NCBI GenBank assembly: GCA_009838965.1
Contig: VXQP01000037.1
Span: 1 to 61,248 of the forward strand
Direction: 5' to 3'
DNA: 61,248 nt
From: Chloroflexota bacterium
GTDB taxonomy: Bacteria > Chloroflexota > Dehalococcoidia > Lucifugimonadales > Australimonadaceae
In this document: piece by piece, positions 11,257 to 17,599 of the stretch
How the letters are laid out: the number at the start of each line of letters is the position of its first letter
How positions within the stretch are numbered: position 1 is the first letter of the stretch
Position numbers and translations under genes: made by a program
Notes under the pieces: generated by a model
What the model was told of the DNA's origin: nothing
What the model saw: the letters and a program-made list of their open reading frames with translations, nothing else
The model's database searches: none

Positions 11257-11298
11257 CCCGGCGATCGCAGTGGGACACCAAACGCACCGGAGGCGCTT

Positions 11299-11940
11299 AT
11301 GGCCACGCAGAAGGCAGACGTTTACTACGACTTCCGTTGACCGTTCGTTTTCAATGCAGCCGTGTGGCTGGATAAAGTGACCGAAGCGATGGGCGGCGAG
11401 GCGCCGCTCGAGGTGACGTGGAAGCCGTTCTCGCTCGCGCAGGTCAACCAGAAGACAGGCGACCCTGACTACAGGGCGTGGAGCGAGCCGGACGAGAGCC
11501 TCGACCAGAGCCTCTGGGGGCTGCGCGCCGGACAGGCCGCGCGGCGCCAGGGCGAGGACGCGCTCAGGGCGTTCCTCCCGCTGCTGCTCAGCGCACGGCA
11601 CCAGGACCGCGTAGAACTGAACGACATGGCCGTGCTGCAGCGGCTCGCCGGCGAAGCAGGTCTCGACGTTGACCGGTTCACCGCCGACCTGGACGACCGC
11701 TCGACGCTGGACGAGATCGCCGACAGCCATACCCACGCCGTTGAGGAGCTGGGTGTCTTCGGAACGCCGACGTTCGTGTTCGAGGGCGGCGGTTCCGCAT
11801 TCCTGAAGCTGATCAGGCCGCAAGAGAACGAGCAGGCGCTGAGCGCCTTCAATTCGCTCCTGGGGCTGATGCGGGACGAGGTATTCGTCGGCGAAGTGAA
11901 GCGTCCGCAGCCCCCGTGGCCCAAGGGTGTCTTTGACTAA
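11299..11940 (+). CDS. DsbA-family oxidoreductase with in-frame UGA (candidate selenoprotein)
   Basis: Reading from ATG 11299 (behind CCGGAGG at 11287-11293) gives MATQKADVYYDFR, then TGA at 11338-11340, then PFVFNAAVWLDKV in the same frame on to a stop at 11938-11940, 213 residues with the UGA as residue 14. In DsbA/FrnE/hydroxychromene-isomerase relatives the motif after the first beta strand is DF.CP...., so the UGA falls exactly on the catalytic cysteine. The remainder shows the family's helical insertion and the cis-proline segment GVFGTPTFVF near 152-161. A hairpin 16 bases after the UGA fits a bacterial SECIS. The alternative is a point nonsense mutation, with translation of only the part from GTG 11362; that product would lack the active site. 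Confidence 0.75.
11357..11370 (+). promoter_or_regulatory. SECIS-like hairpin downstream of the UGA codon
   Basis: CAGCC GTGT GGCTG forms a perfect five-pair stem with a GUGU tetraloop. It starts 16 bases after the UGA and its loop G is 22 bases after it, close to the spacing of the E. coli fdhF element, whose apical loop also carries G and U that SelB recognises. A weaker lower stem (UUUUC with GAUAAA) may extend it. Assignment is by structure and spacing only. Confidence 0.6.
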
Positions 11941-12748
11941 CGAGCCGGGTGGACACCCCCATCCTAACCTTCCCCCATCAAGGGGGAAGGGACCAAGCGG
12001 GGCGCCCGAACAGCAAGACGAGGTTCCTGCCTCCGCAGGAACGACAAGGGCAAGTGCCGCGCTCGAAAGGACGCTTGGCGTGCGTTTCAACGAGCGCGGA
12101 CTGCTGCACGAGGCGCTCGTGCATCGCTCGTTCCTGAACGAGCAGGACGACCCGTCGCTCGCGAGCTACGACAGGTTGGAGTATCTCGGCGACGCGTTCC
12201 TCGGCTGGGTCGCAGCCGCCGAGCTCTACCGGCTCTACCCGCATTACGACGAGGGAGAGTTGACGCGCGCCCGCGCATCGCTCGTACGTGGCGAAACGCT
12301 CGCGGATATCGCGCGCGGTCTGGGGCTGGGGGCGCACCTGCTGCTCGGTCAGGGCGAGGAAGCGAGCGGGGGACGCGACCGCGACCGCAACCTCGCGGCG
12401 GCGCTGGAGGCCTTGGTCGGCGCAACGCTCCTCGACCAGGGCGAGGAGGCAGCCCGTTCGCTCGTCCTCCACTGGCTCAAGCCCCGGATCCAGGCGATGG
12501 GGGATACCGGAGCCGAGCGGGATGCCAAGAGCGCGTTACAGGAGTTCCTCCAGGGGCAGGGGCTCCCCCTGCCCGTCTACGAGACGGTCTCCGACTCCGG
12601 CGAACCGCACGATAAGGAGTTCGTTGTGCGCGCGCTGGTGGACGGTCGCTCGATGGGAAGGGGCGCGGGACGCAGGAGGGCGGACGCTGAGCAGGCCGCG
12701 GCGCGTGAGGCGCTGACCACACTGCGTGGTTCAACAGGCTCACCATGA
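11927..12748 (+). CDS. rnc: Ribonuclease III with repeat-derived N-terminal extension
   Basis: Double-strand-specific endoribonuclease that processes rRNA precursors and structured RNAs. The nuclease domain begins at ALERTLGVRF and contains the signature YDRLEYLGDAFLGW; a double-stranded-RNA-binding domain follows from DAKSALQEFLQ to the end. No ATG, GTG or TTG lies between the conserved domain and GTG 11927/TTG 11933, so about 45 residues encoded by two dispersed palindromic repeats (peptides NLPPSRGKG and VPASAGTT) appear to be translated. A GTG inside the first helix is the only internal alternative and would trim the domain. The start overlaps the preceding gene by 14 bases. Confidence 0.9.
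   Translation: MSLTNEPGGHPHPNLPPSRGKGPSGAPEQQDEVPASAGTTRASAALERTLGVRFNERGLLHEALVHRSFLNEQDDPSLASYDRLEYLGDAFLGWVAAAELYRLYPHYDEGELTRARASLVRGETLADIARGLGLGAHLLLGQGEEASGGRDRDRNLAAALEALVGATLLDQGEEAARSLVLHWLKPRIQAMGDTGAERDAKSALQEFLQGQGLPLPVYETVSDSGEPHDKEFVVRALVDGRSMGRGAGRRRADAEQAAAREALTTLRGSTGSP
11955..12042. repeat. Two dispersed palindromic repeats inside the rnc reading frame
   Basis: Positions 11968-11989 carry CCTTCCCCC and its mirror GGGGGAAGG around ATCAA, preceded by CACCCCCATCC. Positions 12023-12042 carry the GTTCCTGC/GCAGGAAC palindrome around CTCC. The first is shared with the exonuclease/DinG gene at 33964-33984, the second with intergenic copies at 1319, 2125 and 12874. Confidence 0.8.
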
Positions 12749-13037
12749 GCGGGTGGCCCCTCACCCGCCGCGCTATCGCGCGGCGACCCGTTCGACAAGC
12801 TCAGGGCAGGCTCTCTCCCAGAGGGCGAGGTGGGACAATGCACCCTGCCACCACTCCACCACCGGGCTGCGGGGTTCCTGCCTCCGCAGGAACGACGGGC
12901 GGGGTGCTCCGCCCGAAATGACCAAGTCCGCCCCCAGTCCGCGTCTTGTGAGCGGATTCCCGCCATTGATACCATGCAGCCTGCAAGTGGGAGGGCTGCC
13001 GCAGAGCAACTACCCGGACAAGGAATGATTCGCCCAC
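12749..13037. repeat. Intergenic repeat cluster between rnc and ftsY
   Basis: No gene is seen. Positions 12752-12837 hold a composite element with CCCCTCACCCGCCGCG, a GCGCTATCGCGC-type core, the fragment TTCGACAAGCTCAGGGC and CTCTCCCAGAGGG. Positions 12874-12893 carry another GTTCCTGC/GCAGGAAC palindrome. The rest looks unstructured until the GTG of ftsY. Confidence 0.65.
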
Positions 13038-14003
13038 GTGGTTTTCAACTTCCTCCGCCGTAAGGACAAGACGACACACGCTCTGGCCAGGACGCGGAAG
13101 GGCTGGGGAGGAGGGCTGGCCGCGTTGTTCCAGGGCGCGACGCTCTCGGACGACCGCCTCTGGGAAGACTTGGAAGACGCACTCATATCCGCGGACGTGG
13201 GCGTCGACACCTCGCTGGGAGTTGTGAACACCGTTCGCCAGCGCGTCAGGGAAGAAGGCGTAGACGACCCGGACGAAGTCATCGAACTATTCAAGGAGGA
13301 GATCGCTTTCCTCCTCGACCCCGAGGACAAGAGTTTCTGGGACTGGTACGACCAGGAGAACCTCGCCGCCAAGCCGTTCGTACTCATGATCGTTGGCGTG
13401 AACGGCGCGGGGAAGACCACGAGCATCGCCAAGATGGCGGCCCACTACCAGCGCATGGGGAAGTCGGTCCTCATCGGCGCAGGCGATACGTTCCGGGCTG
13501 CGGCGATAGACCAGCTCAAGGTCTGGGGAGACCGGCTGCAAGCCGACGTCGTCGCGCACCAGCCGGGCTCCGACCCCGGCGCCGTAGCCTTCGACGCGTA
13601 CGAGGCTGCGACGGCACGGGGAGCCGACGTTCTCCTGTTCGACACCGCGGGCAGACTGCACACGAAAGCGCCGCTCATGGATGAGTTGCGGAAGGTACGC
13701 CGCGTGTTCGAGAGCCGCGCCTCCGGAGCGCCGCAACAGACGCTGCTCGTGCTGGACGCGACGACGGGACACAACGGCGTGGAGCAGGCCCGTCTCTTCC
13801 AGGAAGCCGTCGGCGTGGACGGCGTCTTCCTCGCCAAACTCGACGGCACGGCCAAGGGCGGCGTGACGGTCGCCATCGCACAGCAGCTGCGCCTGCCCGT
13901 GGTGTTCATCGGCACCGGCGAGGGCACGGACGACCTGGCGCTGTTCGACACGGACGATTTCGTTGACGCGCTCTTCGGCGACGAACCACAGAGGGCCGAC
14001 TGA
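13038..14003 (+). CDS. ftsY: Signal recognition particle receptor FtsY
   Basis: A 321-residue SRP-type GTPase that docks ribosome-SRP complexes at the membrane. The GTG at 13038 opens with MVFNFLRRKDK, a basic amphipathic start suited to membrane contact, followed by the N domain. The G domain has the P-loop GVNGAGKTT near 118-126, DTFRAAA, DTAGRLHTK, and the TKLDG-equivalent AKLDGTAKGG. The protein lacks the long acidic A domain of E. coli FtsY, as is usual outside proteobacteria. The stop overlaps the next ATG (ATGA). Confidence 0.95.
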   Translation: MVFNFLRRKDKTTHALARTRKGWGGGLAALFQGATLSDDRLWEDLEDALISADVGVDTSLGVVNTVRQRVREEGVDDPDEVIELFKEEIAFLLDPEDKSFWDWYDQENLAAKPFVLMIVGVNGAGKTTSIAKMAAHYQRMGKSVLIGAGDTFRAAAIDQLKVWGDRLQADVVAHQPGSDPGAVAFDAYEAATARGADVLLFDTAGRLHTKAPLMDELRKVRRVFESRASGAPQQTLLVLDATTGHNGVEQARLFQEAVGVDGVFLAKLDGTAKGGVTVAIAQQLRLPVVFIGTGEGTDDLALFDTDDFVDALFGDEPQRAD

Positions 14004-17000
14004 TGGGCATCTTCGATGCAGCCCTGTGGTTCCTTACCCTGGAGGCGTTCTCCTTCGCCGCGTTCCCCATCGCCTTCCGGGCGTTCTCGCGCATGCCGGA
14101 CCGGGGCTATGCCTTCTCCAAGCCGCTGGGGCTGCTGAGCGTGGGCTTCGTAGCGGGGCTCATCGGCATGAGCCGCACCATCCCCGTCTCCAATCTGTCC
14201 GTGCTGGCAGCATTCGCGGTCGTCGTTGCCATAGCGGTACTCGCGGTCCGCCGCTGGCGCCGCGAGATATGGGCGTTCCTGTGGAACAACCGGACCATCG
14301 TGCTCATGACCGAGGGGCTGTTCCTCCTCGCGTTCGCAGCCATGACGCTTTACCGGGCGATGGTCCCGGACATCAGCACCACCGAACAACCGATGGACCT
14401 CATGTTCCTGAGCTCCACGGTCGCCAGTTCTTACTACCCCCCCATGGACGCATGGTTCGCAGGCGAACCGGTCTCCTACTACTACCTGGGCTACCTGCTC
14501 ATCGGCTCCGTAGCGTTGCTCACGAACACGATAACGCCCATCGCCTACACGCTGGGCCTCGCCACCTACGCCGCCATAGCAGCGGTCGCGGCATTCGGGC
14601 TGACGTTCAACCTCGTACGGCTCTCACGAGGGTCGCTCGCGGCGGGAGCATCCGCAGGGGCCGGGTCCGTCTTCCTGCTGTTGATAGCAAGCAACGTCCT
14701 GGGCGTGCTCGAACTCGCATGGGCATCCAATGCGGGGACCGCGTCTTTCTGGGCGTGGATAACGCCCAACGCAGACTGGTACAGGGATGCTCAGGCGTCC
14801 GCTTCCTGGCGCCCCGAAGAGTTCTGGTGGTGGTGGCGCGTGTCGCGCGCGGTGCCGAACGCGATAACGGAGTTCCCCGCGTTCAGCTTCCTGCTGGGAG
14901 ACATGCACCCGCACGTCATGTCCATCGGGTTCGTTCTCCTAGTCATAGGGATCGCCATCCAACTGTATCTGCGGCCGGGGATCATCCAGCGCGACATGCT
15001 CTGGCGACACTTCCCGCTCATCCTCGTGACCTCTGTGAGCGTCGGAGGAATGGCGGCGATCAACCTCTGGGACCTGCCGCTGGGCCTGACGCTGGTCGGA
15101 GGCGCGGTGCTGCTGAACGCGGCGCGGAACGAACGGCGCATCCAGTTCGGGCGCTCGCTGGCATTCACCGACCGTTTCCTCATCATCGGGACCGCCGCCG
15201 GCCCGCGTGCGGAAGAGGACGTGAACACCGCGTGGCTGTATGCAAAGCAGGGCAACAAGTGGCGCCTCGTTCACGGGATACAAGCGCGAGGGTTGGGTAT
15301 CGATTCGGACTTCGGGGCATCGGTGGCGGCGCACGGCGACATGGTCGCTGTCGGCGCCCCGAGGGCGAACCTAGAAGGCCTCGTCGAGCTCTACGCCTTC
15401 GTCGACGAGCGCTGGACGCACGCCGCGACGCTCAGACCCGAGGACGCAGAAGGTGTAGTGGGGTTCGGTCAGTCCGTGGCGATGTACGGCGATACGGTCG
15501 TGGTCGCCTCACTGGAAGCAGTCTACGTGTATACCGGTGAAGAGCGGGACTGGACGCTCACGGCAAGACTCTACCCTTCCGCGGACGACGGCCTGCCTAC
15601 CCAGGTGGCGCTGGAGAACAACCTGCTGGCCGTGGGGATCCTGAGCTTCGACGGCTGGCTGGTGGACGTCTATAAACGAGCGAACGGCGAGTGGGGACAC
15701 TCGTCGGCTATACACCCCTCGTTCACCGACACGAACCGTTTCGGAAGGAGCATCGCGCTCGATGCCGGACGCCTGGCGGTAGGCGGCGATGCGGTTGTAA
15801 CGATATTCAGCGAGGCGCAGCGCGGCTGGGTGCCCCTGGCAACACTCGGATGCCCCGCTCCTTCCGCCCGGGAATCGTTCGGCTCCGCAGTTGCATTGCA
15901 GGACTACTACCTCGTCGTGGGGGCGCCGGGCAGCAAGGGGCCCGCACCGAACGCAGGCTGCGCGTTCATCTTCGAAGAGACGTCACGCGGCTGGCGCTTC
16001 CAGGCCGAGCTGACCGCAGACGACACGAGTATCGACACGGCGCTCGGGAGTGCGGTCGCCATACGGAACGACACGGTCGTGCTCGGGGCGCCCGGCGGAG
16101 GACAGGGCAGTATCTACACCTTCAACCGGGTCCTCGACACGTGGACGCACGAGAAGAAGATCACAGGGCGATGGCGCCTTGGGCGCGCCCTGCTTACGAC
16201 AGCCCTGTTCGTGGCGGGCTCTCTGCTCGCGGCGTTCCCATTCCTGTTCAACTTCGAGAGTTCGGCAAAGGGCATCAGTCCCGTGCAAGAGGTGATGACC
16301 CGGCCTGCGCATCTCGTGCTGGTGTGGGGCGTCCTGGGCGTCCTGACCGTTCCCTTTTTCATCGTGGTGATGCGGCATGTCTTCCGGCACGGGAACTGGA
16401 GCCTGCTGCGCTTCAGCATCCCCATGCTCATAGCGTTCTCGCCGGTGCTGCTCTGGATGCAGCCGCTGTACGGCATCCCCATCGTAGGCATCGCAGCGGT
16501 GCTCTTCGGGTTCCACCAGATGGGCATCAAGCAGCCACGCGCGGACGAGGCGCTCTTCGCCTTCAACCCGCGTGTCACTCTCATCGCCGGCAGCATCGCG
16601 ATAATCCTGGGCATCCTGTGGGACGGCATCGTGAACGGCGAGCGGGGCATCGAAGGCGAACTGCTCGCCGTGGACCGGCTCATACCGGTCATCCCCCTGT
16701 CCATCATCGTGGGCCTTGCCCTGTACGGCGCGTGGACGCTGGCGCACCGGGACAGCGAAACGATGCGCCTCTCAGTTGACCGCGAGCGCGCGGCGCAGTG
16801 GAACCCGGCGGTCCCCGGCCTCTTCCTGTTCGCTATCGCGGCCATGCTCGTCATGGGAGCGGAGCTGTTCCACGTGGTGGACATCTTCGGGGGAGACCTG
16901 CGGCGGATGAACACCATCTTCAAGCTGTACTACCAGGCGTGGCTGATCCTCGCCGTGCTGGGCGGCTTCTCTCTCTGGTTCCTAACCATCAGATGGAACA

Positions 17001-17599
17001 TGAAGCTGACCATCGGCCGGGTGAGCGGATACGCGGGGCTGGGGTTGCTCGTGATCATCTTCGTAGCAGTCTCCTACTATCCGGCGGCAGCGGTGGCCAC
17101 ACGCATCACGGAGCAGGACAGGTTCACCCTGAACGGGACCGCGTACGTGGAGGTGTATTCCCCAGCCGACTACAACACGATCGCGTGGGTACGCGAGAAC
17201 ACCCCGGGCGACGCCGTCGTGCTCGAAGGCTCCCTCGTGCCGTGCCCGGAGAACCCGGACGGCTGCAACGACTGGAAGCCTGAGCTTACGCGGATAGCGT
17301 CCGCTACCGGACGGCCCACCATCCTCGGTTGGGAGTGGCACGAGCGCCAGTGGCGCAGCAACGAAAGCGCCGATTTCGAGCAGCGCCAGCAGGACGTCCG
17401 CACTATCTACGAGACGGAACAGGCGGAGACCGCCGCTCTGCTCCTCGACAAGTACGGGGTAGACTACGTAGTAGTAGGACCCAGAGAACGCGCAATCTAC
17501 GGTGAGTCGGGCATCCCGAAGTTCTCAACGCTGGGTTCCAGCGTGTTTGCAGACGGAGGCATCACCGTGTACCGCATCGACGCAGAGGGGGCGGCGTAA
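14003..17599 (+). CDS. YYY-domain (DUF2298) membrane protein with inserted FG-GAP-like propeller
   Basis: A very large (1198 residues) polytopic membrane protein. The N-terminal helices and SYYYLGY motif near 156-162 identify the Chlor_Arch_YYY/DUF2298 family, thought to act in envelope glycan assembly in Chloroflexi and archaea. The region after NLWDLPLGL is interrupted at about residue 379 by some 340 soluble residues of repeats such as FGASVAAHGDMVAVGAP, FGQSVAMYGDTVVVAS and FGSAVALQDYYLVVGAP, a beta-propeller pattern of FG-GAP/integrin-alpha type. Membrane helices resume near residue 722. The C-terminus is a soluble domain. Both halves are in one open frame. It overlaps ftsY and is followed directly by the TIGR03663 gene. 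Confidence 0.85.
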   Translation: MGIFDAALWFLTLEAFSFAAFPIAFRAFSRMPDRGYAFSKPLGLLSVGFVAGLIGMSRTIPVSNLSVLAAFAVVVAIAVLAVRRWRREIWAFLWNNRTIVLMTEGLFLLAFAAMTLYRAMVPDISTTEQPMDLMFLSSTVASSYYPPMDAWFAGEPVSYYYLGYLLIGSVALLTNTITPIAYTLGLATYAAIAAVAAFGLTFNLVRLSRGSLAAGASAGAGSVFLLLIASNVLGVLELAWASNAGTASFWAWITPNADWYRDAQASASWRPEEFWWWWRVSRAVPNAITEFPAFSFLLGDMHPHVMSIGFVLLVIGIAIQLYLRPGIIQRDMLWRHFPLILVTSVSVGGMAAINLWDLPLGLTLVGGAVLLNAARNERRIQFGRSLAFTDRFLIIGTAAGPRAEEDVNTAWLYAKQGNKWRLVHGIQARGLGIDSDFGASVAAHGDMVAVGAPRANLEGLVELYAFVDERWTHAATLRPEDAEGVVGFGQSVAMYGDTVVVASLEAVYVYTGEERDWTLTARLYPSADDGLPTQVALENNLLAVGILSFDGWLVDVYKRANGEWGHSSAIHPSFTDTNRFGRSIALDAGRLAVGGDAVVTIFSEAQRGWVPLATLGCPAPSARESFGSAVALQDYYLVVGAPGSKGPAPNAGCAFIFEETSRGWRFQAELTADDTSIDTALGSAVAIRNDTVVLGAPGGGQGSIYTFNRVLDTWTHEKKITGRWRLGRALLTTALFVAGSLLAAFPFLFNFESSAKGISPVQEVMTRPAHLVLVWGVLGVLTVPFFIVVMRHVFRHGNWSLLRFSIPMLIAFSPVLLWMQPLYGIPIVGIAAVLFGFHQMGIKQPRADEALFAFNPRVTLIAGSIAIILGILWDGIVNGERGIEGELLAVDRLIPVIPLSIIVGLALYGAWTLAHRDSETMRLSVDRERAAQWNPAVPGLFLFAIAAMLVMGAELFHVVDIFGGDLRRMNTIFKLYYQAWLILAVLGGFSLWFLTIRWNMKLTIGRVSGYAGLGLLVIIFVAVSYYPAAAVATRITEQDRFTLNGTAYVEVYSPADYNTIAWVRENTPGDAVVLEGSLVPCPENPDGCNDWKPELTRIASATGRPTILGWEWHERQWRSNESADFEQRQQDVRTIYETEQAETAALLLDKYGVDYVVVGPRERAIYGESGIPKFSTLGSSVFADGGITVYRIDAEGAA

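Follow-up and report, generated by a model that had tools for sequence, protein, structure and literature searches.

A predicted DsbA-fold selenoprotein with a lone selenocysteine and no cysteine, encoded upstream of rnc in a Chloroflexota genome

The window is a 61,248-nt stretch of DNA (contig VXQP01000037.1) from a 3.0-Mb, 96.6% complete Chloroflexota assembly (GCA_009838965.1), the nearest named relatives of which are SAR202-cluster/Dehalococcoidia MAGs. The following features were identified in it:

11287..11298, + strand, ribosome-binding site region, with GGAGG a few bases 5′ of the ATG
11299..11940, + strand, predicted selenoprotein gene, DsbA-fold oxidoreductase of 213 aa, TGA read as Sec (residue 14)
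11338..11340, + strand, TGA codon for Sec14 in the motif DFR-U-PFV, with only TGA or Cys codons at the aligned site
11354..11373, + strand, wider SECIS helix, with AU/AU outer pairs and a G.G mismatch
11357..11370, + strand, SECIS stem-loop core CAGCC-GTGT-GGCTG, with the loop G 21 nt after the UGA
11755..11778, + strand, cis-Pro loop GVFGTPTF, second wall of the thioredoxin-fold active site, in conserved columns
11899..11922, + strand, family-specific C-terminal motif KRPQPPWP (KxPQPPWP invariant among the aligned sequences)
11927..12748, + strand, rnc (RNase III; Pfam), the next gene downstream
13038..14003, + strand, ftsY (SRP receptor GTPase; Pfam), often the next gene after rnc

The selenoprotein frame begins at ATG 11299, meets an in-frame TGA at 11338-11340, and is then open to TAA 11938-11940. 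Re-reading of the sequence bore out the positions given in the original prediction for the ATG, TGA, stop, and stem-loop, together with its statement that the TGA alone breaks the frame. The ribosome site that it placed before the upstream ATG is present as GGAGG, and a purine-rich site also precedes the start in most relatives. The read-through protein matched Pfam PF01323 (DSBA; 3.3e−16; 60.1 bits versus a gathering score of 25.6). A profile search of NCBIfam identified no model passed by the 213-aa protein; a weak match, far below cut-off, was to another selenoprotein family, NF041057. An ordinary ORF caller placed the start at GTG 11362, where the SECIS loop also begins, and lost the active site as anticipated. 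The translation carries U-P-F-V at the active site and contains no Cys at all, in line with the expected lack of the second cysteine of a CXXC, and the two-residue site (CXXC or UXXC) that strictly defines DsbA and FrnE is absent. In silico, the tryptic peptides at the site are Sec-PFVFNAAVWLDK and its neighbor ADVYYDFR. Within the order, 31 of 32 Sec genes use TAA or TAG as their true stop.

In all, 59 genomes were sampled, comprising that of the window and relatives, and a full-length homologue was found in 34. At the order level, the aligned site was TGA in 32 of these homologues and Cys in two. Across the class and phylum, the site could be read in 78 loci, of which 58 had TGA and 20 had TGC or TGT; no other codon occurred at the aligned site among the 78. 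Among these loci are a sister UPWC type (L095, L096, L098-L103, and L105), the Cys forms that correspond to it, and a few loci of one genus that are near-identical; most of the 58 TGA loci are from separate species-level genomes. The TGA aligns with the catalytic Cys of homologues, as had been proposed. The 13 codons upstream of the TGA are conserved; between same-genus relatives, the differences in them are few and nearly all synonymous. Among relatives, the site showed no stop codon other than TGA, no frameshift, and no decay of the upstream codons. Searches of viral contigs found no relatives, while four relatives were matched on plasmids, three of them from Deinococcus. The UPWC type represents a second Sec-containing DsbA-type protein in other Dehalococcoidia, one that combines a selenol with a possible resolving Cys.

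A maximum-likelihood tree required at least 8 changes of the Sec/Cys label, compared with 15 in shuffles; strong branch support forces five of the 8. Within Chloroflexota, the family has exchanged Sec and Cys no fewer than five times, and the Sec form predominates in the order to which the window's genome belongs. SelB fell below the model cut-off in 7 of 20 Cys-form genomes versus 3 of 56 Sec-form genomes (Fisher p = 0.0025, with genomes treated as independent). Of the three Sec genomes with SelB below the cut-off, two have assemblies of 63% and 88% completeness, while SelB-like fragments lie at contig ends in the third.

The hairpin had been described as a perfect stem-loop starting 16 bases past the TGA, and it was found there as CAGCC (11357-11361), a GTGT loop (11362-11365), and GGCTG (11366-11370). 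The bSECIS model calls for a loop of 3 to 9 nt with a G within the first two positions, a stem of 4 to 16 bp, a spacing of 16 to 37 nt, and an MFE of ≤−7.5 (PMC13188914). The window hairpin falls within all of these limits, with a 4-nt loop (GUGU, hence the G-U start), a 5-bp stem, a spacing of 21 nt, and −9.8 kcal/mol. The stability of the lone hairpin was unexceptional against shuffles (z of about −0.3 to −1.1). Since single-sequence folding was uninformative, conservation was used as evidence for the hairpin. The frequency of identical codons at positions +6 to +11 after the UGA was 0.67, compared with 0.27 when synonymous codons were shuffled within genes (z = 25); this is the maximum for the gene, with the best window off the hairpin at z = 5 and a gene median near 0.6. 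Two-sided base changes were identified at 5 of 8 pairs (for example, U-A to C-G, G-C to U-A, and G-C to A-U), a result matched in 2 of 500 shuffles, and the covariation score of the stem was reached in none of 500. The G.G mismatch of the wider helix is replaced by G-C or U-A in relatives. Synonymous constraint and covariation are the evidence that the hairpin is not a product of chance. In Cys loci the stem is not maintained, the median core stem score being 3.8 compared with 10.0 for Sec loci. Scored in a fixed register against synonymous shuffles of each gene, the stem reached p < 0.05 in 40% of the loci with Sec and in 5% of those with Cys, a modest outcome that is partly due to several relatives shifting the loop register and to the distant UPWC type having its hairpin elsewhere.

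A search of the same assembly for the selenocysteine machinery recovered the complete set, namely, selA (contig C28; 524 bits), selB (contig C19; 339 bits), selD (G000:C46:37313-38233, L018; 387 bits), and a tRNA-Sec with a UCA anticodon (contig C63; 69.9 bits). The selD gene carries an in-frame TGA of its own, and the selenophosphate synthetase of this genome is thus probably also a selenoprotein.

AlphaFold2, run with 34 sequences, returned a model with a pLDDT of 90 and a pTM of 0.86. The top PDB match was DR2335 of Deinococcus radiodurans (7dk9 and 7dka; Z of 22.1, 2.6 Å over 194 residues, 30% identity), followed by Rv2466c, FrnE, HCCA isomerase, and kappa GST. Both the PF01323 score and the fold place the protein in the DsbA fold superfamily. 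The earlier "DsbA/FrnE-like" description is refined in one point: the protein lies nearer a single-Cys, DR2335-type branch than true FrnE, which has a CXXC. The protein starts directly with the first β-strand, as the upstream peptide had been expected to do, and no signal peptide was evident; these characteristics suggest a cytosolic location. Columns F154, G155, T156, P157, and T158 of the cis-Pro loop are invariant or near-invariant, and other conserved features include Sec14-Pro15, R104, D130, K170, and the C-terminal KxPQPPWP. The KRPQPPWP stretch is nearly invariant across the family, even though model confidence is lowest in this part of the structure.

In most sampled loci, including those of Cys-form genomes, rnc lies directly downstream, often followed by ftsY. 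Together with rnc and often ftsY, the selenoprotein gene belongs to a same-strand cluster that is conserved in both Sec and Cys lineages (window 11299-14003; L022-L027 and L109-L123). The GTG listed as the start of rnc (11927) lies inside the selenoprotein gene, and translation of rnc may in fact begin elsewhere. Adjoining ftsY, a 1,198-aa ORF (14003-17599, + strand) encodes a DUF2298 membrane protein with FG-GAP_2 repeats in mid-protein, an unusual domain insertion.

Computed support from the frame, the Sec/Cys exchange, the conservation of the SECIS, the complete machinery, and the fold leaves very little doubt that 11299-11940 encodes a DsbA-fold selenoprotein, as predicted, with Sec at TGA 11338. 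Were the TGA a true stop, the locus would be a pseudogene or would yield a shorter protein from GTG 11362, the very ORF that an ordinary caller reports. This is highly improbable: a start at the GTG removes the first strand and the active site, the upstream codons are conserved and differ mostly by synonymous changes in the closest relatives, TGA is kept in dozens of genera with the remaining frame open and similar, and relatives lacking TGA carry Cys there. The pseudogene reading was rejected on the conserved upstream codons, the open frame, and a site occupied by TGA or Cys only. Metagenome assemblies do contain single-base errors, and a TGC or TGT could be misread as TGA by sequencing or assembly, but with TGA in 58 loci, mostly of separate species-level genomes, the chance of this is negligible, and the explanation was rejected because independent assemblies repeat the TGA. 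An equally minute chance attaches to genome-wide reassignment of UGA (code 4 or 25) or read-through as Trp or Gly. The frame would indeed be open if TGA encoded any residue; however, the standard code leaves neighboring genes open, and where relatives have a different residue it is always Cys. In addition, a dedicated tRNA-Sec is encoded in the genome together with SelA, SelB, and SelD, and a conserved RNA hairpin occupies the SECIS position. Reassignment across the genome was rejected on these grounds.

The activity of the selenoprotein is a separate matter. It could act in the manner of GST-kappa/HCCA isomerase or as a nitroreductase-like enzyme (Rv2466c) rather than as a thiol oxidoreductase, given that kappa GST, HCCA isomerase, and Rv2466c are among the structural matches and that a lone nucleophile suits a transferase or a thiol-cofactor-coupled enzyme. 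This is considered rather unlikely, as repeated Sec/Cys exchange suggests that the residue takes part in redox or nucleophile chemistry and DR2335, the best structural match, has a single Cys. In HCCA isomerase and kappa GST, Ser occupies the Sec-equivalent position, which also counts against such an activity.

For the DsbA-fold selenoprotein, SelB would bind the stem-loop at 11357-11370 during translation of the mRNA and deliver Sec-tRNA(Sec) to UGA 11338, placing Sec as residue 14 at the N terminus of the first active-site helix. With no Cys available in the protein, the selenolate would act alone, being oxidized by peroxide or attacking a disulfide or other electrophile. The resulting selenenic or mixed selenenylsulfide intermediate could then be resolved by an outside thiol, either a low-molecular-weight thiol or thioredoxin. 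One-selenol redox chemistry resolved from outside is, on balance, the favored inference. More tentatively, these proteins may be a DsbA-fold family in their own right, lacking Cys and relying on one selenol, with a long history in Chloroflexota and with KRPQPPWP and the link to rnc-ftsY as hallmarks. Such a family would carry out peroxide reduction or reduction coupled to low-molecular-weight thiols, a chemistry undescribed for DsbA-family proteins.

Standard ORF calling truncates this gene, and its product passes no NCBIfam model. Dozens of related species keep the Sec-codon arrangement in the active site of this small redox enzyme. The finding links a large uncultured bacterial group (SAR202-type) to the use of selenium and contributes a selenoprotein that is widespread in SAR202/Dehalococcoidia, has a clear SECIS, and shows many natural Sec/Cys swaps. 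These swaps represent a natural experiment in which selenium has been kept or lost at an active site with one nucleophile.

Among characterized structures, DR2335 shares the full-length fold and has a single conserved Cys at the position of the window's Sec, without the second Cys of a CXXC; no function was reported for it (PMC8945050). FrnE (DR_0659), Rv2466c, and DsbA-type CXXC enzymes share the DsbA-like thioredoxin fold, helical insertion, and cis-Pro loop but have two cysteines (CPWC and the like), whereas the window protein has none. Selenoproteins of related motif have been listed before. The GOS survey named families DsbA 1, 2, and 3, the last being pfam01323 with UxxV, represented by 5 sequences from three samples (Zhang and Gladyshev 2008, PMC2398784). 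It resembles the window protein by motif, sharing the Pfam family and U-x-x-V (here U-P-F-V); the portion of the survey consulted gives no host lineage, gene neighbors, SECIS covariation, or Sec/Cys history for it. A 2026 review lists a "DsbA-like protein form 2" with DxxUP in PF01323, MDP6049977.1, an entry labeled "crotonase/enoyl-CoA hydratase" (PMC13188914); here too the likeness is by motif, with PF01323 and DxxUP (here DFRUP) common to both. DFRUPFV fits both the UxxV and the DxxUP definitions of the published motif tables. In the literature searched, no papers joining SAR202 and selenoproteins were found; two papers mention both SAR202 and selenocysteine, the latter a single time in each. 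Selenoproteins with this motif were thus already present in surveys, so that the kind is known and the member is new; what is added for the motif type is its taxonomic home, SECIS, gene neighbors, and evolutionary history.
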